Source of the DNA: an uncultured Clostridia bacterium
GTDB taxonomy: Bacteria > Bacillota > Clostridia > UBA1381
Reading direction: 5' to 3'
DNA: 64,000 bases
Assembly: GCA_947624485.1 (NCBI GenBank)
Contig: CANQKM010000004.1
Coordinates: 1-64,000, forward strand
The position numbers and the translations under genes were made by a program. Each line of letters starts with the position of its first letter. Positions within the stretch are counted from its first letter, which is position 1. Positions 1,930 to 13,407 of this stretch are shown here, piece after piece. The notes under the pieces are model-generated. The model was not told the origin of the DNA. It worked only from the letters and a program-made list of their open reading frames with translations, and did not search any database.

Positions 1930-4900
1930 ATGAAAAAACGAATTTTAAGCTTAACTGTTGTATTGTCAATGGTACTTGCCATGATACCGGCGTTTTCGCT
2001 GACCGCGTCGGCGGCGGAATTTGTCGGCTCGGGCGGTAACGGCACGGAGGATGAACCGTATCTTATTTCCAATCTTGACGACCTTGAAGCGTTCCGCGAT
2101 TATATTAACGCTGATGCTGACGGCGGCAGCGATGAGTATTTCAAGCTGACGGCGAATATAGATATGTCTGACAAGTACGGCTCGGGCGGTACATCGTGGA
2201 CGCCGATCGGAACGTTTTCAACAGGGTTTAACGGCGAATTTGACGGAGCCGGTCATACGGTAAAAGTATCGTTGTTATATACCGATAGTACCGTTAATTA
2301 TATAGGCTTATTTGGAACGGTGGGCAGCTACATCAGCAACGGCGACGGCGCGATAAGAAATCTCGGCGTATCGGGTTCAATAAACAGTACTGCCGCTGTA
2401 ACTGCTATCGGCGGCATCGTGGGACAGAACAGCGGTCATGGCAGAATAGAAAGCTGTTACAGCAGCGTAAATATCAACGGAAAGGGTTCGATCGGCGGTA
2501 TTGCGGGAACGAATGTATTGGGCTCGATAACAAACTGTTATAATACGGGTAATATTACAAACAGTTCGACAAGAAACGACGAAGGAACGGGCGGTATTGT
2601 CGGTTACAATTACGAAGCGATAATGAGCTGCTATAACACGGGAAAGATAACGCTTGCCGAAGGAGGTGCTGCTGCCGTCGGCGGAATTGCGGGAACGCAC
2701 GAACAAGGAATAATAGAGAACTGCTATTATCTTACAGGTACGGCGGAAAAGGGTATCAGCGGCACGGACGACGCTGCGGAAACGGTTGAGGAAAAGAATA
2801 CCGAAGACTTTAAGACGCTCGCGTCGGCACTGAACGACGGATGGGACGTGTGGGTAGATTCCTCTTTCCTCGGAAGACCTGTGTTCACCGCTTTTCCTGA
2901 GGGCGGCGACGGTAAGGAGGCTACTCCGTATACGATTCCCGACCTTGAGACGCTTGAAAAGGTGCGCGATTATATCAACGCCGGCAACGGCAGCGGCGAG
3001 TATTTTAAGCTGACGGATAATATTGATATGTCCGACAAGTACGGCGCGGACAAGGGCGAGGACGGCACATCATGGACACCGATCGGAGCGTATTTAAAGC
3101 CGTTTAACGGCATATTTGACGGCGGCGGCTTCACGATAAGCGGACTTTACATTAAATATGTAACGAGTGACTACACAGGCTACAAAGGTCTGTTCAGAGA
3201 AATAGACACAGAGGGAGAGGTTGAAAATCTAACCGTTTCGGGCAGTATCAGCGGCTATGAAACCGTGGGCGGCATCGCGGGATATAACGAAGGCGTTATC
3301 TCAAATTGCCACAATAAATGCACGGTCAACGGTACTCGCAGTAATGTAGGCGGCATCGTGGGACAAAACAGCAGCGGCAGCATTGAAAATTGCGATAACA
3401 CGGGAGCGGTAAGCGGCGCCGGATTTTTGGGCGGCATCGTGGGACAAAACGTCTTAACCAGCAGTATTGAAAATTGCCATAACACGGGCACGGTAAGCGG
3501 CAGCGGCAGTTATATTGGCGGCATTGTCGGAGATAACAATGGAACTTGCAGCATTAAAAACTGCTATAACACGGGAACGATAAGCGGCAAATATGTTGGC
3601 GGCATTGCGGGAACCAATTACGACGGCAATAGCATTGAAAATTGCTATAACACGGGTGAGGTAAGCGGCACGGGCGACTATGCCGGCGGCATTGCGGGAT
3701 ACCACACAGGCACCATTAAAAACTGCTATAACACGGGCACGGTAAGCGGAAATAACAGAGTAGGCGGCATTGCGGGAAACGACTACTCCGGCGGCACCTT
3801 TGAAAATTGCTATAACGCTGGAACGGTAAGCGGCAGCGGAGGATACATAGGCGGCATTGTGGGCTACCACGGCAGCAGCGGCAGCAGTATTGAAAATTGC
3901 TACTACCTCAATACCTGCGGCGCAGAAGGTCAGGGCACGGCAAAAACAGAGGATGCGTTTAATTCCGGCGAGGTGGCGTGGCTACTGCAAAACGGTCAGG
4001 ATACGCAAACGTGGGGACAGAAGCTCAGTGACGGCGCGGACGCATATCCCGTGCTTACGAGTGACACAAGTAAAAAGGTTCTGAAAGTTACGTTCGCAAC
4101 ACAAGATAACCCAAATTATGATGTTAAGTACACCAATCTGAATAAAACGGTAGCGCTGCCGGAAAATCCCTCAAAGACTAATTATACGTTTGAAAGATGG
4201 TCGCAAAGTAAGGACGCGGACGGTGAAAAGTTTGACACGAGTACGAGCGTTACCGAGGATATAACGGTGTACGCCGTCGGACACGACCATTTCGGCGGCG
4301 ACAGTGCGGACATTGCGCTTAGCGCGACTTACGGCTACGCGGATGCGATTACGGTCAATTTGGACGAGCATATGAAGTACGCGAACAGGAGTGTTGCGGC
4401 TGCGGGTAAATTTACGTATAATATAGAAAGTGATGTAAACAGTACGAGCGCGAGTATAGTAAGCGGCAATACTCTGAATATCCCAGTTGGACTTAACGCG
4501 GGCGATTATACGATTACGGTTACGGCTACGGAAAAAGAGCCGCAGTATTCGCTTATGAGCGTTGAGGATTTCGGTACGGATGATGTGACGCTCACGGTTA
4601 AAGTGAGCATCGCGAAAGCCGCGTCAAGCGTAGTGAGCGCGCCGACGGCAAAGAATTTGACGTATAACGGCACGGCGCAGGAGCTTGTGACGGCGGGTAC
4701 AGCTGAGGGCGGCGAAATACAGTACGCTACGGAGCAGGAGGGCGAATATTCGTCAACCATTCCGACGGGTACGGAAGCGAAGGACTACGAGGTTTGGTAC
4801 AAGGTACAGGGTGACAGTAACCATAACGACAGCAATCCGCAGAAGGTGGACGTGACGATTAAAAAAGCAGATTCCACGCTGGCGGTTAACGGCGGCGAGG

Positions 4901-7900
4901 TGACCTATGGCGATACGATTACCCTTACCGCCAACGTTACGCGCAGCGCGGCGAACGGTATACGTTTAGCGGCGGTAGATTTGGATAAAGTCGAGTTCTT
5001 TATTAATGAAAAATCCCTCGGTACGGCTGATGTAGAATATACAGACGGGGAGTTAAAAAGCATCGGCACCGCGACGCTTGAAATCACCGCAAACAAGGAT
5101 TTTGAAATCGGCGCGAACACTATCCGCGCGGTGTACGGCGGAAGCGTGAACTTAAACGGAAGTCAAAACAATTCAATCACCGTTACGATGAATAAGAAAA
5201 CGCTTACATACACGGCGGCAGCGACAAACAGGGCATATAACGGCGGCACGATCGTTGAAGTAACCCTTACGCCAACGAACTCCGGCGGCGATGATGTAAC
5301 ATTAACGGCAACGGGAACGATTGAAAGCGCGGACGCGGGTGACGACAAGGCAGTTACGATAACAGGCGTTACCGTAGGCGGCGACGACGCGGAATATTAT
5401 CAAGCGGCAGCTACTCCGATAGAAGCGGTTACGGTGAATATTGAAAAGGCTGATTCGACCGTTGTTGCTCCGACGGCAAAGACGGATTTGACGTATGACG
5501 GTACGGCGCAGGAGCTTCTTGCAACAGCAGGCTCGGCGACCGGCGGCGAATTGCAGTACAAGGTTGATGAGGGAACGTACTCGACAGCCGCGCCGAAAGC
5601 AACAACAGCCGGAGAGCATACCGTTTATTATAAAGTAGTTGAAAATGAAAATTATAACGGCATAGCAGAGGCAAGTATAAAGGTCACAATCGCGAAGGCA
5701 ACGCCGACATTCCCGACTGTTGAGGCGGTTGACGGCGGTACATATGAACCTAATAAGAAACTTAGCAGCGTACCCGTGCCGGGAGTAGACGGCGGTACGC
5801 TCGCGTGGAGTGACGGCGAAACGGCACTTAATGCAGGCGCAAACAGTGTGCAGGCGGTATTTACGCCCGATAACAGTGAGAATTACGAGCCTACAAGCAT
5901 TACCGATACGGTTACGGTAAACGTCGCAAAGGCAACGATTACCGGCGTGGGGGTTCAGGACGTAACGGCGCGGTTTGACGAAACGCAGCCGACAAAGCAG
6001 TACACGCTCGCCGCGCCGACAGGAACGATTGCGGGCGATACCGTAAGATATGCCGAGGGCGACTATAACGCGGAAACCGACGAAAGCGCGGATTGGCAGG
6101 AAACCTGCCCGAGTTACAGTAACGAGGGTACGGATAAGACGATTACGGTTAAAATAGAGAGAGCAAATTATAACACACTCTATCTCAAAGCTACTATAAA
6201 GATTACAAACGAGCCGGCGATTGATAATGTTGACGTAACGGCGAACGACGGTCTTGTTTACAACGGCGGCGCGCAGGAGCTTGTAACGGTAGAAGGCACA
6301 CAGAGTAGCGACATAGTTACATACTATGTAAACGACGACTTGACCGGCAGCACGGAAAAGGCGACGGGTACAAACGCGGGCAGCTACTCGGTTAAGGTGA
6401 CCGTTGAAAGAGAGAGGTATCATCACTTTGAAAAGACGGTCGCGGTTACAATCGCAAAGGCTAATTCGACCGCGGTTGTAACACCGAAGGATTTGACGTA
6501 TAACGGCGAAGAGCAGGAGCTTGTCAGCGGCAGCGCCGAGGGCGGCGAATTGCAGTACAGTCTTGATAACATCAGCTATTCTACCACTGTCCCGACAGGC
6601 ACGAATGCGAATACCTACACAGTTTGGTATAAGGTGGTCGGCGATGATAACCATACCGATTTGGCTCCGCAGTCGATACAAACGGAAATAAAGAAGGCAG
6701 ATTCCGTCACCGATGTTGATAGTGCAGAAGTAACGTATGGTGACAAATTGATACTGACAGCTTCAGTGTCAAGGAAACCGTTGTTGGGCGGCATAAGCTT
6801 AATGGCTCTGGCAGATAAAGTTGATTTTTATCTCGGCGAAACGCCGCTCGGTTCGGCAGACGTAAGCTATACCGATGAGATGAAAGACAGCGGTACGGCA
6901 ATTCTCGAAATCACTGCGGACAAGCGTTTTGAAATCGGTACGAATACAATTCGCGCCGAGTATGGCGGCAGTGTGAACTTAAACGGCAGCGAAAACAATT
7001 CGATCACCGTTACGCTAAATAAGAAAACGCTTACATACACGGCTGAAGCGACAAATAGGCAATATAACGGTGGCACGACTGTTGAAGTAACACTTGAGCC
7101 AACTAATGCCGAAAGCAGTGATACTGTAACATTAACGGCAACAGGAACGATTGACGACGCGAACGTGGGTGACGGCAAGAGCGTTACGATAACAGGCGTT
7201 ACCGTAGGCGGCGAGGACGCGGAATATTATCAAGCGGCAGCCACTCCGACAGGTGCGGTTACAGTGGATATCGCAAAGGCGAAAGGCAGAGCGAGTGTTA
7301 CAATGGCAGACTACACGTGCGGCGATGAAAGTGTAAACCCCGTTCCCTCGTCCGATACGAACGGAACGGAAAGCGTAACCTATTCATACGCGGCGAAGGG
7401 TACGGACGATTACAGCGAGGTCAAGCCTTTAACAGCCGGAGAATACACGGTCAGGGCGATATTCGAGGCAAGCGATAACTATACCGAGTTGACCGTGACC
7501 GACGACTTTACCGTATCGCATGAATATTCGGTCGATTGGAAAAACAATGAAAATAGTCATTGGCACGAATGTGTGTGCGGAGCGGAATCGGACGAAACGG
7601 CGCATGAGGCGGTGACTGACGCGGCGGTACCCGCGACCTGTACCGATACGGGCAAAACCGAGGGCAGCCACTGTGACGTGTGCGGCTATGTTATTACGGC
7701 GCAGACAGAGACGGACGCGCTCGGTCACAGCTACGGCTCATGGATGATCACAATAGACCCGACACAGACTGCGGCAGGTAAAGCAAAACGCGTATGCGCT
7801 TTGAACGGTGAACATCAGGAAACAACGGACGTTCCCGCCTTAAGCGACAGCTCATGGATAAAGGGCGGGCGCCAAGAGCCGACCGAAACCGAGGAAGGCT

Positions 7901-9594
7901 ATCAAAAGTACACATCGGACAAGTTCGGCGAGTTTACGGAAGTACTGCCGACGCTCAGTGCGCCGCCGACCTATGGAGTACGAGGCACGACCATTGACGG
8001 TGACGGCAGCCCAAAGGCGGGCGTGCATGTTGTATTAAAGCAGGGTAATACAATATTCGGCTCGCAGGACGGCGTTGTGTCCGACGAGGACGGCGAGTTT
8101 AAGTTTACCGGCGTGGGAGCGGGCGTATATAATATTGTAGCGGAGTTTACGACAGAGGACGCGACTGTTACGGTTACGGAAATGGTCGTGATTACGGACA
8201 GTGACGTGGATAATGTGGAGGTAAGGCTGCCCACAGCGAAGGCGGACAGTATACTTATTGTTGAGAATAATAACGATACTCCCGATGTTGTTGTCGGCGG
8301 TCTTGACAGTGTGGCGTCGGATGAGGCGTCGGATATTCCCGATACGAGCCACGTCACCGTTACAATGACTGTGGAAAATCAGCCTGCGAACAGTGAGAAC
8401 GCCGAGCAGCAGGGTATTGACGAGATTTGCGATAATGCGGCTATCAATTTCATAGATATTACGCTTGTTAAGCAAATAGATAACGGCGTGTCGGAGAATA
8501 TTAAGGAAACGAGAAAACAGCTTACAATCGTAATCCCGTTCGATACAAATAATAAAAACAACATAACCGTCTATCGTTACCACGGCGGCGAGGCGGAGGC
8601 TCTTGCAAATACAGCCGAGCAGGGCGACTACTTCACAGTCGGAAACGGATATGTAACAATTTACACAAGTAAGTTCTCGACTTATGCCATAGGCTACGAC
8701 GAAAATTCTTCATCTGCTTCGTCACACGGCGGCGGCAGTGGTTCCTCATCGTACACGGTTCAGTTTGAGGCGAACGGCGGCAGCAAGGTAACATCACAAA
8801 GAATTTCGCGTAACGGCGTTGTGAAAGAGCCGACCGCTCCGACAAAGGACGGTTATACGTTCACCGGCTGGTACACAGATAAGGATTTGACAGCCGAATA
8901 TGATTTTACGTCGAAGGTTACAAAGAGCTTTACCCTGTATGCGAAGTGGAATGAAGCGGAGCCGGACGACGAAACGGAAGCAACTCCCGCGCCTACGGGC
9001 GAGCCGACATACGAGACTGACCTGCCGGACGACGAGCTATACAATCCTTTTACGGACGTTACAAGCGATTTCTGGTTTTACGAGCCTGTGCTGCAAGCAT
9101 ACAGGGACGGTATCATGGAGGGTGTGACCGACACAACATTTGAACCGCTTACGGATATTACACGGGGAATGTTTGTGACTGTGTTGTATCGTATGGAAGA
9201 TGAGCCGGAAGCTGACGGCGGATATACGTTTACAGATGTGCCGAGCGATGCTTACTATGCCGACGCTGTGGCGTGGGCAAGCGCGAACGGAATTGTTAAA
9301 GGCTATTCCGATACCGAGTATGCGCCCGATGACGTCATAACGCGCGAGCAAGCCGCGGCGATAATGTTCAGATACGCAACGTACAAAGGAGAAGCTCCGA
9401 CGGGAGCGTGGGCGATACGGCTCGACTATCCCGACCTTGCCGAAATTTCCGATTGGGCGCTTGATGGCGTAATGTTCTGCACCATGAAGGATATTATGGT
9501 GGGACGCGTCAGCGGAGAGTTCGACCCGAAAGCGAATATTACCCGCGCCGAGGGCGCAGCCGTGTTTGAACGGTATTTGAATATGGCTAAGTAA
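1930..9594 (+). CDS. Giant S-layer-homology surface protein (GLUG/MBG/SLH)
   Basis: A 2554-residue secreted, wall-attached protein. It has a signal peptide (1-29, ending LTASAAE), two blocks of GLUG motifs (about 130-275 and 435-660; GGIVGQN...NCYNTG), each preceded by a duplicated RDYINA/EYFKLT unit, and an InlB B-repeat-like segment near 715-785. MBG/Ig-like modules with LTYNGTAQEL follow (about 895-1790), then a Cys/His section with HWHECVCG and HCDVCGY near 1870-1930, a carboxypeptidase-regulatory-like domain near 2012-2100, a second InlB repeat near 2274-2340 (FTGWYTDKDL), and three SLH domains at 2371-2554 (NPFTDV, FTDVPSDAYY, PDDVITREQAA). SLH domains bind pyruvylated wall polymer, so this is an outer-surface structural or adhesive protein; its ligand is unknown. 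Start fixed by GGAGG eight bases before ATG. It is followed by a terminator and likely driven by the MerR-type promoter. Confidence 0.93.
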   Translation: MKKRILSLTVVLSMVLAMIPAFSLTASAAEFVGSGGNGTEDEPYLISNLDDLEAFRDYINADADGGSDEYFKLTANIDMSDKYGSGGTSWTPIGTFSTGFNGEFDGAGHTVKVSLLYTDSTVNYIGLFGTVGSYISNGDGAIRNLGVSGSINSTAAVTAIGGIVGQNSGHGRIESCYSSVNINGKGSIGGIAGTNVLGSITNCYNTGNITNSSTRNDEGTGGIVGYNYEAIMSCYNTGKITLAEGGAAAVGGIAGTHEQGIIENCYYLTGTAEKGISGTDDAAETVEEKNTEDFKTLASALNDGWDVWVDSSFLGRPVFTAFPEGGDGKEATPYTIPDLETLEKVRDYINAGNGSGEYFKLTDNIDMSDKYGADKGEDGTSWTPIGAYLKPFNGIFDGGGFTISGLYIKYVTSDYTGYKGLFREIDTEGEVENLTVSGSISGYETVGGIAGYNEGVISNCHNKCTVNGTRSNVGGIVGQNSSGSIENCDNTGAVSGAGFLGGIVGQNVLTSSIENCHNTGTVSGSGSYIGGIVGDNNGTCSIKNCYNTGTISGKYVGGIAGTNYDGNSIENCYNTGEVSGTGDYAGGIAGYHTGTIKNCYNTGTVSGNNRVGGIAGNDYSGGTFENCYNAGTVSGSGGYIGGIVGYHGSSGSSIENCYYLNTCGAEGQGTAKTEDAFNSGEVAWLLQNGQDTQTWGQKLSDGADAYPVLTSDTSKKVLKVTFATQDNPNYDVKYTNLNKTVALPENPSKTNYTFERWSQSKDADGEKFDTSTSVTEDITVYAVGHDHFGGDSADIALSATYGYADAITVNLDEHMKYANRSVAAAGKFTYNIESDVNSTSASIVSGNTLNIPVGLNAGDYTITVTATEKEPQYSLMSVEDFGTDDVTLTVKVSIAKAASSVVSAPTAKNLTYNGTAQELVTAGTAEGGEIQYATEQEGEYSSTIPTGTEAKDYEVWYKVQGDSNHNDSNPQKVDVTIKKADSTLAVNGGEVTYGDTITLTANVTRSAANGIRLAAVDLDKVEFFINEKSLGTADVEYTDGELKSIGTATLEITANKDFEIGANTIRAVYGGSVNLNGSQNNSITVTMNKKTLTYTAAATNRAYNGGTIVEVTLTPTNSGGDDVTLTATGTIESADAGDDKAVTITGVTVGGDDAEYYQAAATPIEAVTVNIEKADSTVVAPTAKTDLTYDGTAQELLATAGSATGGELQYKVDEGTYSTAAPKATTAGEHTVYYKVVENENYNGIAEASIKVTIAKATPTFPTVEAVDGGTYEPNKKLSSVPVPGVDGGTLAWSDGETALNAGANSVQAVFTPDNSENYEPTSITDTVTVNVAKATITGVGVQDVTARFDETQPTKQYTLAAPTGTIAGDTVRYAEGDYNAETDESADWQETCPSYSNEGTDKTITVKIERANYNTLYLKATIKITNEPAIDNVDVTANDGLVYNGGAQELVTVEGTQSSDIVTYYVNDDLTGSTEKATGTNAGSYSVKVTVERERYHHFEKTVAVTIAKANSTAVVTPKDLTYNGEEQELVSGSAEGGELQYSLDNISYSTTVPTGTNANTYTVWYKVVGDDNHTDLAPQSIQTEIKKADSVTDVDSAEVTYGDKLILTASVSRKPLLGGISLMALADKVDFYLGETPLGSADVSYTDEMKDSGTAILEITADKRFEIGTNTIRAEYGGSVNLNGSENNSITVTLNKKTLTYTAEATNRQYNGGTTVEVTLEPTNAESSDTVTLTATGTIDDANVGDGKSVTITGVTVGGEDAEYYQAAATPTGAVTVDIAKAKGRASVTMADYTCGDESVNPVPSSDTNGTESVTYSYAAKGTDDYSEVKPLTAGEYTVRAIFEASDNYTELTVTDDFTVSHEYSVDWKNNENSHWHECVCGAESDETAHEAVTDAAVPATCTDTGKTEGSHCDVCGYVITAQTETDALGHSYGSWMITIDPTQTAAGKAKRVCALNGEHQETTDVPALSDSSWIKGGRQEPTETEEGYQKYTSDKFGEFTEVLPTLSAPPTYGVRGTTIDGDGSPKAGVHVVLKQGNTIFGSQDGVVSDEDGEFKFTGVGAGVYNIVAEFTTEDATVTVTEMVVITDSDVDNVEVRLPTAKADSILIVENNNDTPDVVVGGLDSVASDEASDIPDTSHVTVTMTVENQPANSENAEQQGIDEICDNAAINFIDITLVKQIDNGVSENIKETRKQLTIVIPFDTNNKNNITVYRYHGGEAEALANTAEQGDYFTVGNGYVTIYTSKFSTYAIGYDENSSSASSHGGGSGSSSYTVQFEANGGSKVTSQRISRNGVVKEPTAPTKDGYTFTGWYTDKDLTAEYDFTSKVTKSFTLYAKWNEAEPDDETEATPAPTGEPTYETDLPDDELYNPFTDVTSDFWFYEPVLQAYRDGIMEGVTDTTFEPLTDITRGMFVTVLYRMEDEPEADGGYTFTDVPSDAYYADAVAWASANGIVKGYSDTEYAPDDVITREQAAAIMFRYATYKGEAPTGAWAIRLDYPDLAEISDWALDGVMFCTMKDIMVGRVSGEFDPKANITRAEGAAVFERYLNMAK
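4617..5457 (+). repeat. Ig-like module of the SLH gene, copy A
   Basis: This segment encodes an MBG unit, an Ig-like unit (ADSTLAVNGGEVTYGD...GGSVNLNG) and a third unit ending EYYQAAATP. The same order recurs at about 6449-7275 with high DNA similarity, for example the shared AATAAGAAAACGCTTACATA. It is an internal duplication within one gene. Confidence 0.75.
6449..7275 (+). repeat. Ig-like module of the SLH gene, copy B
   Basis: Second copy of the module at 4617-5457, diverged in places (the linker SRKPLLGGISLMALADK replaces TRSAANGIRLAAVDLDK). Nearly identical DNA stretches favour recombination-driven length variation of the protein. Confidence 0.75.
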
Positions 9595-9623
9595 GATTAA
9601 ATTCGGTCATATATGAATATATT

Positions 9624-9662
9624 AAAAGGCGCTATCCCCTTTTATGAGGATAGCGCCTTTTA
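9624..9662 (+). terminator. Terminator of the SLH gene
   Basis: GGCGCTATCC and GGATAGCGCC form a perfect 10-bp stem followed by CTTTTAT, 30 bases after the SLH stop codon. Confidence 0.9.
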
Positions 9663-9772
9663 TGTCCGTCTCGGCTTTGTCAAATATGCTATAATTAAGC
9701 TGATATCTTGGTATCACTGCCGTATTTCTGCATTGAGCAAAAAATCAGTTAGAGATGTTAAAGTGATATATT

Positions 9773-9907
9773 ACGGTCACGCTCCGTATAAAAATGTAGA
9801 AACTTTTAAGCCGTTTTTTGAGGGTAGTAATGAAAGTATATTACCCTGTCGGATTTGCCCCAAAAGCATTAGGTTTTATGCGGTTTTCAGAACCTAAAAT
9901 TTCTACA
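9773..9907. repeat. Structured repeat element, copy 1
   Basis: The element begins TTACGGTCACGCTCC, contains TTACCCTGTCGG, and is bounded by complementary arms TGTAGAAACTTTTA and TAAAATTTCTACA (one base bulged). Copy 2 at 10165-10304 has the same conserved words but different, again complementary, arms. About 80 bases after the element both copies are followed by TACAATTCACTGTCATTC and a GCAGAACGGC motif. Confidence 0.65.
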
Positions 9908-10043
9908 ATCATGCACTGTTGTGACATATTCCGCACCTCATACTTTACAATGCAGTGTATTTTGCGACTTTATCAACTTAGTATACAATTCACTGTCATT
10001 CTGCAGAACGGCGGTTTTGAACCCGATACATAGCTATGTAATT

Positions 10044-10089
10044 ATTACAACAATCATTGCACACAAACTTGTGTCAATATTATTGTAAT
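10044..10089. repeat. Long imperfect hairpin between the two repeat copies
   Basis: ATTACAA-C-AAT-C-ATTG-C-ACACAA pairs with TTGTGT-CAAT-ATT-A-TTGTAAT, giving 20 base pairs with two bulged Cs on one arm, one mismatch and an AC loop. It is followed by ATTTTTG on the plus strand. It could be a rightward terminator or a folded recombination site. Confidence 0.5.
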
Positions 10090-10164
10090 ATTTTTGCCTA
10101 AATTTTCTAAGGAATATACAAAAATATTGTTGTATATGCAAAAAAATCGGAGCGCAGCCTTAAA

Positions 10165-10304
10165 TTACGGTCACGCTCCTTACAAAAATGTCCGCATTTT
10201 TAACCCCATTTTCGGGGTATCGAATATAATTTCATTACCCTGTCGGTTTTCGGCTAAAAAAAACCTTGATTTTATGCGAATTTTTTGCTTAAAATGCGGA
10301 CTAT
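10165..10304. repeat. Structured repeat element, copy 2
   Basis: Shares TTACGGTCACGCTCC, an AAAAATG stretch, ATTACCCTGTCGG and a TTTTATGCG box with copy 1. The bounding arms are GTCCGCATTTTTAA and TTAAAATGCGGAC: the outer seven bases differ from copy 1 on both sides but remain complementary, and one base is bulged as in copy 1. Confidence 0.65.
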
Positions 10305-10458
10305 GACGCTTATTTCTCTTATGTTCAGCGTCCTTTTTCAGTCGTGCTGTTTTTCGACATTTATCACAGTATTTCGTTCTGCGCTCTGTCAGAATATAAT
10401 TCTCACCACATATTGTACATTTTTCGTATTTGTCAGTTTCATCAGCCTTATGTACAAT
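10180..10458 (-). pseudogene. Zinc-finger-like gene fragment without a start
   Basis: The minus strand is open for about 92 codons with no ATG and with in-frame stops just upstream. It reads ADETDKYEKCTICGENYIL, then RTKYCDKCRKTARLKKD and a basic tail. The CxxC...CxxC spacing is a short zinc-ribbon pattern common in mobile-element proteins. The same region after repeat copy 1 (about 9915-10020) holds a more decayed version with stops (CGICHNS). I read both as relics of a duplicated gene. No function can be assigned. Confidence 0.45.
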
Positions 10459-10627
10459 TCACTGTCATTCGGCAGAACGGCAGTTCTGAACCATCTGCAC
10501 AACAGCGAGTATGAAATTGTCTGTGGCCATATGCTGCTATCGTCATTGTCCTTGAAAACACAAGGTGTTTCGGGAGCTACTGTGAATTATCTTTTTTCAA
10601 AGCGTAGTCGATACCGTTTTCGGAGTA

Positions 10628-11129: not shown

Positions 11130-11154
11130 GGCGTTTATATTTTGTTTTATAGAG

Positions 11155-11215
11155 GTTAATACTAAGCTTTGACTGTCTGAAACCCTTGATTTTAAGCCAT
11201 TTTCATCTAAAATCC
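11155..11215. repeat. Direct repeat R1 (left boundary of the three-gene cassette)
   Basis: It starts GTTAATACTAAGCTTTGACT and continues with CTGAAACCCTTGATTTTAAG and CCATTTT. The first 49 bases match R2 at 12706-12765 with two differences. The pair brackets three leftward ORFs and nothing else. Confidence 0.8.
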
Positions 11216-11333
11216 ATGGATTTATGTTTTTTACATCAAATTATTTATAATATTTCATAGTTTACACTTGTGTTGCTTACTGATCGAGAATTGTTATAAT
11301 AGTCTTGACAAAGTTAATTAAGACATTTTTCTA

Positions 11334-12836: not shown

Positions 12837-13106
12837 TCAAAACTCATAATGTGTCCGCATACTGACAATTTTTACTGTTTTATTTTCATCGTCAATTTGA
12901 TACACAAGCCTATGCTGTACATTTATTCGCCGCGAGAACGCGCCGCTTAAATCTCCTGTCAGCTTTTCGTACGGCGGCGGTGTCTTATACGGATTTTCAC
13001 AAAGTATATCGATAAGCTGCTGCACCTTTCCGTCCAAATGCGCGGCTTTCAGCTTCGGAATGGCTTTTAATGCGGATTTTGTGAAAAATATTTTATACAT
13101 TACCAC
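12837..13106 (-). CDS. yoeB: YoeB-family toxin
   Basis: An 89-residue RelE-superfamily ribosome-dependent mRNA endonuclease. The YoeB signature is clear: FTKSALKAIPKLK at the start, PYKTPPPYEKLTGDLSG, then the core SRRINVQHRLVYQID and the C-terminal MRTHYEF, which supplies the His-Tyr pair. The catalytic Glu (YEKL region), Arg and His-Tyr are all present, so the toxin looks intact. Its start overlaps the last codons of the antitoxin gene, the normal YefM-YoeB arrangement. Adjacent to the cassette strip, it may stabilise that region. Confidence 0.92.
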   Translation of the reverse strand: MVMYKIFFTKSALKAIPKLKAAHLDGKVQQLIDILCENPYKTPPPYEKLTGDLSGAFSRRINVQHRLVYQIDDENKTVKIVSMRTHYEF

Positions 13107-13348
13107 TCAACCGCGCTTTCTTCGACACAATCCTCAATCGGCGTTTTCATACCTTCTACAATCTCGTCCTTCACTTCCCGATTGCGTGACAGATACAAGG
13201 TTTCCATAAGTCCGTTATAGTCCGCCTCGCTGATAATAACGGCATTTCCCGCTTTCGTGTTGACGTTTATTACATCATTAAATTCAACCGCCTGATTGAT
13301 ATAGTCGAACAAGTTTTTTCTGAGATTGGTTATATTTATATTTGTCAT
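13100..13348 (-). CDS. yefM: YefM/Phd-family antitoxin
   Basis: 82 residues from the ATG at 13348, chosen because GGAGGTGAATGAC precedes it; the longer ORF-track start would lie upstream of the promoter -10. It has the Phd/YefM DNA-binding N-terminus (NITNLRKNLFDYINQAVEF), the strand VINVNTKAGNAVIISEADY, and a C-terminal toxin-binding tail with IEDCVEESAVEW. It represses its own operon and neutralises YoeB. The toxin start lies within its last codons. Confidence 0.9.
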   Translation of the reverse strand: MTNINITNLRKNLFDYINQAVEFNDVINVNTKAGNAVIISEADYNGLMETLYLSRNREVKDEIVEGMKTPIEDCVEESAVEW

Positions 13349-13368
13349 GTCATTCACCTCCGACATTA

Positions 13369-13407
13369 TTATATGTACATAATAACGTACATATAACATT
13401 TTGTCAA
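13369..13407 (-). promoter_or_regulatory. yefM-yoeB promoter with autoregulatory palindrome
   Basis: On the minus strand TTGACA, 17 bases, TATTAT. A perfect 10-bp inverted repeat TTATATGTAC...GTACATATAA (13369-13396, 8-base centre) covers the -10 and start region, the expected place for YefM-YoeB autorepression. The GTACAT half-site matches the TGTACA core known for YefM operators. Confidence 0.85.

Follow-up and report, generated by a model that had tools for sequence, protein, structure and literature searches.

Two Copies of One Repeat With Different Arms

The window, a stretch of 64,000 nucleotides from an uncultured Clostridia bacterium (contig CANQKM010000004.1, positions 1 to 64,000), contains two related repeats whose bounding arms differ between the copies and yet remain complementary within each copy. 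This raises the question of whether the pairing of the arms is kept rather than their sequence, and of what an element built in this way might do. The initial annotation had described two copies of an unnamed repeat with such arms and one bulged base in each, and this description was confirmed on the sequence (Table 1). Copies A and B match at 72% over 99 nt and lie 394 nt apart from start to start. The arms of copy A are GTAGAAA-C-TTTTA and TAAAATTTCTAC, with the C of the left arm bulged; those of copy B are GTCCGCATTTT-T-AA and TTAAAATGCGGAC, with the T of the left arm bulged. The two strings that had been reported as shared are real: TTACGGTCACGCTCC was found at 9771-9785 and 10165-10179 and TTACCCTGTCGG at 9841-9852 and 10235-10246, neither of them occurs again in the window beyond these places, and chance does not account for two matches, which were obtained in 0 of 100 shuffles. 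However, the 15-mer TTACGGTCACGCTCC falls outside the arms and is not part of the element proper. Next to copy B it forms the 3' strand of a hairpin; copy A has retained this strand alone, and intact relatives of the hairpin adjoin the copies at loci L068 and L007.

Behind each copy lie the remains of a cysteine-rich VLP gene, and the two remnants share a direct repeat, D2. The relative G011 has the same arrangement of elements and VLP remnants as the window, and near copies of copy B are present in G011, G015, and G010. Our preferred reading of the locus is a tandem of two VLP-plus-element modules, old and decayed, that mobile elements have left behind.

Table 1. Features of the two repeat copies and their surroundings in the window.
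Feature	Position	Strand	Basis
Element, copy A (111 nt), arms GTAGAAA...TTTCTAC	9796..9906	+	sequence; R1 match 9792-9910, E 2.5e-16 (seed sequence)
Left arm, copy A (GTAGAAACTTTTAA, C at 9803 bulged)	9796..9809	+	sequence
Right arm, copy A (TAAAATTTCTAC)	9895..9906	+	sequence
Internal core, copy A (TTAGGTTTTATGCGG)	9869..9883	+	alignment A1
Element, copy B (112 nt), arms GTCCGCAT...ATGCGGAC	10190..10301	+	sequence; R1 match 10186-10305, E 1.3e-15 (seed sequence)
Left arm, copy B (GTCCGCATTTTTAA, one bulged T)	10190..10203	+	sequence
Right arm, copy B (TTAAAATGCGGAC)	10289..10301	+	sequence
Internal core, copy B (CCTTGATTTTATGCG), family-wide	10264..10278	+	pattern search and alignment A1
Hairpin GGAGCGCAGCCTTAAATTACGGTCACGCTCC left of copy B, containing the 15-mer (3' strand retained by copy A, 9771-9785)	10149..10179	.	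sequence
Cysteine-rich VLP gene remnant behind copy A, 3' side facing the element	9917..10033	-	tblastn, E 1e-9 to the VLP of L006
Cysteine-rich VLP gene remnant behind copy B	10392..10586	-	PF14194 above cut-off at 10464-10568

Immediately upstream of the repeats there is an ORF for a repetitive, surface-protein-like product of 2554 aa with a signal peptide (1930-9594, + strand). Neighbouring small ORFs at 12837-13399 (- strand) resemble, by reading alone, a RelE/YoeB-type toxin and a Phd/YefM-type antitoxin. At 11150-11230, AAACCCTTGATTTTAAGCC stands behind GAGGTTAATACT; it resembles single-core sites in L019 and L027, and is a different short repeat with the same core.

A Family With a Conserved Interior and Variable Ends

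A DNA search of 61 relatives revealed homologues in G010, G011, G014, G015, G018, G021, G027, and G033, and elsewhere in the genome to which the window belongs. Searching for the core CCTTGATTTTATGCG as a pattern, in combination with an arm finder, yielded copies with new arms. A covariance model (R1) was built on 13 copies aligned by sequence alone; it matched elements in 38 of 121 relatives and, class-wide, in 20 of 291 genomes at E<=1e-4. Covariance and arm-blind searches (see below) gave more than 100 copies in gut Clostridia, of about 112 nt each (a few subfamilies are some 10 nt longer), which share a conserved interior and carry many different arm sequences, GTGGAAC, GTCACGC, GTCAGCA, and ATGGGCA among them. 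The outermost positions are G (91%) and T (92%) on the left and A (92%) and C (88%) on the right, often extended to TGT...ACA, and the conserved interior blocks are AGAACC..ATTTT..GGG, GAATATAA, TTACC, and CCTTGATTTTATGCGG. In L094, L099, L101, L102, L109, and L111 the core was seen by eye to be present as its reverse complement. The interior folded mildly better than shuffled sequence (mean z of -0.8 and -1.0 on the two strands, a strand difference that was not significant), and the whole element reached a z of about -3 on both strands.

In L007, L025, L029, and L046 the core CCTTGATTTTATGCGGTTTTTT leads without a gap into GACCTTCCTTAA and pieces of BspA-like (leucine-rich-repeat) genes, the points of junction differing, and one such piece in L007 is fused to the left half of a B element.

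Covariation of the Arms

For the 13 copies aligned by sequence alone, RNAalifold returned a structure that consisted of the arms only, with double changes in 8 of 10 pairs. Among 77 distinct copies, 89.6% of the arm cells paired (65% after shuffling), and 9 of the 10 arm pairs covaried, with a score of 0.517 against 0.145 for shuffled and at most 0.158 for slid arms. Since the 77-copy alignment had been fitted to the structure and related copies in it are not independent, we also carried out a test that was blind to the arms. To this end an interior-only model without structure (R2) was run on 150 genomes and the known loci, and the arms were measured afterwards; in copy A, a seed sequence, it matched 9808-9890. 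At least 10 of 12 arm positions were complementary in 39 of the 85 non-redundant, non-seed matches, a level reached by 12% of mismatched partners and by fewer than 1% of shuffled flanks, and in 37 of these 39 the right arm ended at offset 100-104. Another 32 of the 85, mostly low-scoring, had at most 8 complementary positions, a level that mismatched partners also attain; the poorly paired matches include a subfamily with the left arm GTAGAAAG and the right side AAATATCTTATAAATGNGGACAT. Arms with one or two mismatches occur, and the mismatches showed no preference for wobble pairs (19 G-T versus 23 A-C).

The expectation, voiced in the initial annotation, that further copies would bring new but complementary arms was thus borne out for most copies, the exceptions being a divergent subfamily and weak or hybrid matches; the non-complementary arms that it had named as the opposite outcome do exist, in the minority just described. 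Its proposal of a selected fold gains from the covariation of the arms across many copies. Selection itself is left unproven by this pattern, since template switching can also yield complementarity.

Elements at the 3' Ends of Genes and Their Link to VLP

The cysteine-rich VLP gene, a small zinc-finger gene of conjugative elements, belongs to PF14194, the sole Pfam family found. The element was located at the 3' end of this gene in 25 of 33 loci (27 of 33 when two seen by eye are added), whereas only 12 of 378 control gene ends showed pairing at 11 or more of 12 positions. The VLP-linked arm usually starts 12-21 nt before the end of the stop codon, which often lies inside the right arm. Viewed from the elements, VLP was found on the right flank of 18 of 76 R1 elements, with its 3' end towards the right arm, and the three left-flank VLP matches belong to a neighbouring copy. 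All six named plasmid-borne VLP genes carry the element; the named carriers include Enterococcus faecalis pMG2200, Monoglobus, Pusillibacter pMM59_01, Subdoligranulum, Vescimonas, and Campylobacter jejuni pGMI16-002. In pMG2200, a vanB-carrying enterococcal plasmid, the element adjoins vanR-B, mobC, and the relaxase gene, in a region that is presumably Tn1549-like. When the L141 copy was compared with phage and plasmid records by nucleotide similarity there was no match, and the elements in those records were found only via VLP. An alignment of VLP proteins showed invariant Cys and no HUH motif among the invariant residues, and the predicted structure was of low confidence (pLDDT 61, pTM 0.34). 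In open-licence papers no description was found of VLP function or of the repeat.

Units away from VLP lie mostly between convergent genes or immediately behind a stop codon, as judged by inspection of the flanking ORFs. Elements follow genes in both orientations, the interior being turned one way relative to VLP genes and the other way relative to other genes, and no strand preference was found. They are frequently arranged in arrays of 2-4 elements with different arms, with as little as about 4 nt between them or with arms that overlap, and dispersed and chromosomal copies also occur. Strong hairpins were present to the right of 17-19 of 46 non-VLP units, over a background of 4-10%. The family resides largely on conjugative and mobilizable elements of gut Clostridia. 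Its constant home is the 3' end of VLP genes; it is also located behind other genes, often in tandem arrays.

Several loci have features of their own. In L149 and L152 the element makes up the entire gap of about 111 nt between VLP and a repA-like gene without an evident ribosome-binding site, and translational coupling across the fold is conceivable there. To the right of the arrays in L118, L119, L066, L037, L064, L196, L198, and L249, a strong hairpin precedes a second conserved palindrome, the module TTGACAG...ACTGTCTTA, and here too the flanking arms differ by locus (CCTGCCGTAA/TTACGGTAGG, ACCATAA/TTATGG, GACACCTAA/TAGGGTGTC). This module looks promoter-like and is often the last of its unit; the motif search was not significant, a control pattern giving equal counts. 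In G007 (L118:9360-9844 versus L123), a block composed of array, hairpin, tail, and a tyrosine recombinase gene lies immediately behind the luxS stop codon, and in G003 (98% identical LuxS) and other relatives the 3' side of luxS has other sequence in place of this block.

A Proposed Folded Strand at Gene Ends

We tentatively propose, as the best of the explanations considered, that these elements are a new family of small hairpin-bounded repeats of the REPIN/RUP kind that function in the form of a folded strand at the 3' ends of genes. The closing stem of 12-13 bp, free in sequence, would enclose a conserved and weakly structured interior (small hairpins; the core CCTTGATTTTATGCGG or its reverse complement), and as a folded single strand the element would bring its own two ends together. 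Some subfamilies may in addition be small non-autonomous repeats that spread as REPINs or RUP do. The family itself, the pairing of its arms, its position, and the link to VLP are shown by the data, whereas folding in the cell, mobility, and any part played by the VLP protein are inferred. Against the proposal count the poor arms of the 32 matches, the weak interior structure, and the lack of any excision, new insertion, clean empty site of a single element, or detectable target-site duplication among our loci (flank k-mers 0.35 versus 0.30 in permuted pairs at k=5). Furthermore, the nearly fixed site behind VLP speaks for a part of a module rather than for a freely moving repeat. It could even be that VLP and the element form a two-part system of conjugative elements, in which a small zinc-finger protein would recognise the fold and not the sequence, and the fold would be a signal, at gene ends or on the incoming single strand, that leads to protection, processing, or copying. 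We consider this extension improbable; in such a system the arms would be free to diverge and neighbours in an array could coexist without interference.

Action as DNA is somewhat favoured over action as RNA: elements follow genes in either orientation, some cores appear inverted, and the arms show no bias towards wobble pairs, and for these reasons we lean to a folded or mobile DNA rather than to one RNA. What still speaks for an RNA role is the position at 3' ends, together with the hairpins found after many units. The corresponding alternative, that the element is a structured RNA of mRNA 3' ends, past the stop codon and before the terminator, which stabilises or processes the transcript, possibly from both strands of convergent pairs, is less probable, but it is the strongest of the competitors. 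It would explain the site behind stop codons and between convergent genes, the excess of hairpins on the right, and the folding of the whole element on both strands, although tolerated parasitic repeats would show the same location (PMC3049150). The initial annotation had offered RNA as one of its two readings, and one defined RNA strand is weakened by the lack of strand-specific folding and of a G-U preference on either strand; the inverted core and the opposite interior orientations in VLP and non-VLP settings also speak against it. Moreover, no known RNA family was recognised, as there was no match to Rfam 15 in the window or, at a relaxed threshold, in 14 loci. A bidirectional intrinsic terminator as the sole function was rejected as well: none was called in 9560-10620, there is no T run behind the closing stem, and an internal terminator would halt transcription before the second arm.

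Improbable, though slightly less so than the explanations that remain, is that no fold is selected at all. DNA template switching within inverted repeats is documented to copy one arm over the other and to invert the spacer, and it can make or keep complementarity without selection (PMC8604942, PMC8794818). The core inversions of this family and the indifference to wobble pairs agree with such a process. The near-constant length and arm position and the nearly fixed VLP site, on the other hand, suggest function, and arms with one or two mismatches are what stepwise change predicts.

A role in conjugative transfer, in which the element would fold on the transferred single strand and work, for example, as a single-strand origin, is very unlikely. 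In the vanB plasmid and in L116 the element stands behind operons for a relaxase or for a relaxase and VLP, an arrangement that recalls sso1 of ICEBs1, which likewise lies behind a relaxase gene and relies more on structure than on sequence (PMC4595007). Nevertheless, the element does not keep to one strand with respect to the nearest relaxase gene (L071 versus L147), which weakens a transfer-strand origin; L116 has two opposite copies within about 1.1 kb, and arrays and chromosomal copies do not fit. Equally doubtful are arms that act as duplex binding sites, that is, terminal inverted repeats read by a transposase-like protein at both ends without pairing: the GT...AC ends, often TGT...ACA, the dispersed copies, and the lack of wobble preference would suit them, but the sites of one protein should be conserved, whereas in this family it is the interior that is conserved and the arms that vary, and the absence of target-site duplications, despite terminal inverted repeats, led us to reject a classical MITE insertion.

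The second reading of the initial annotation, a single-stranded DNA recombination site, was not supported in the attC sense. An integron-like system was considered on account of the Xer-like integrase beside the arrays in G007. An integrase of this L118 type is present in 44 of 121 genomes, and elements adjoin it in G007 only, with none beside 29 other integrase loci.

The general architecture (inverted ends with a spacer, arrays, a site at gene ends) is already known from REPINs and RUP/BOX-type repeats; the new aspects, not described in open-licence papers, are that the interior is conserved while the ends vary, and that the family is tied to VLP on conjugative elements. The family is conserved in shape and resides on mobile DNA of the kind that carries vanB and aadE, and its nearly fixed site beside a conserved gene of unknown function provides a testable cis partner for VLP. 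Since many copies with differing but complementary arms are available in related genomes, it also offers a natural case for asking whether multi-base compensatory change comes from selection or from template switching.

Comparison With Known Systems

The sites known as attC are tandem imperfect palindromes whose fold is more conserved than their sequence, and the new elements resemble them in both respects. They differ by having no general integrase partner and by GT...AC ends without attC core boxes. The structure-dependent stem-loop of single-strand origins, near relaxase modules in rolling-circle plasmids and ICEBs1, is another likeness (PMC4595007), from which the inconstant strand relative to relaxase genes and the tandem arrays set the family apart. 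In PMC8040213, 250 palindromic RNA candidates have been catalogued in human microbiomes.

REPINs are doublets of REP sequences that form hairpins and are linked to RAYTs (PMC3116915). Like them, the new elements have inverted ends and a spacer that could fold into a hairpin as single-stranded DNA or mRNA, are extragenic, form tandem clusters, and have a companion gene by some copies. In REPINs, however, the ends are conserved 16-mers and the spacer is less so (PMC3116915), whereas here the interior is conserved and the arms vary even within one genome; and VLP, which has no HUH motif, does not correspond to the HUH tyrosine transposase that accompanies REPINs. With the RUP, BOX, and SPRITE repeats of pneumococcus the family shares a size class of about 107 nt (RUP), AT-richness, an apparent enrichment between convergent genes, clustering, and a mosaic make-up (PMC3049150). 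BOX and RUP have been reported with target-site duplications (PMC3049150), of which none was detected for the new family, and the latter occurs on mobile elements of many genera, with ends that vary and covary.
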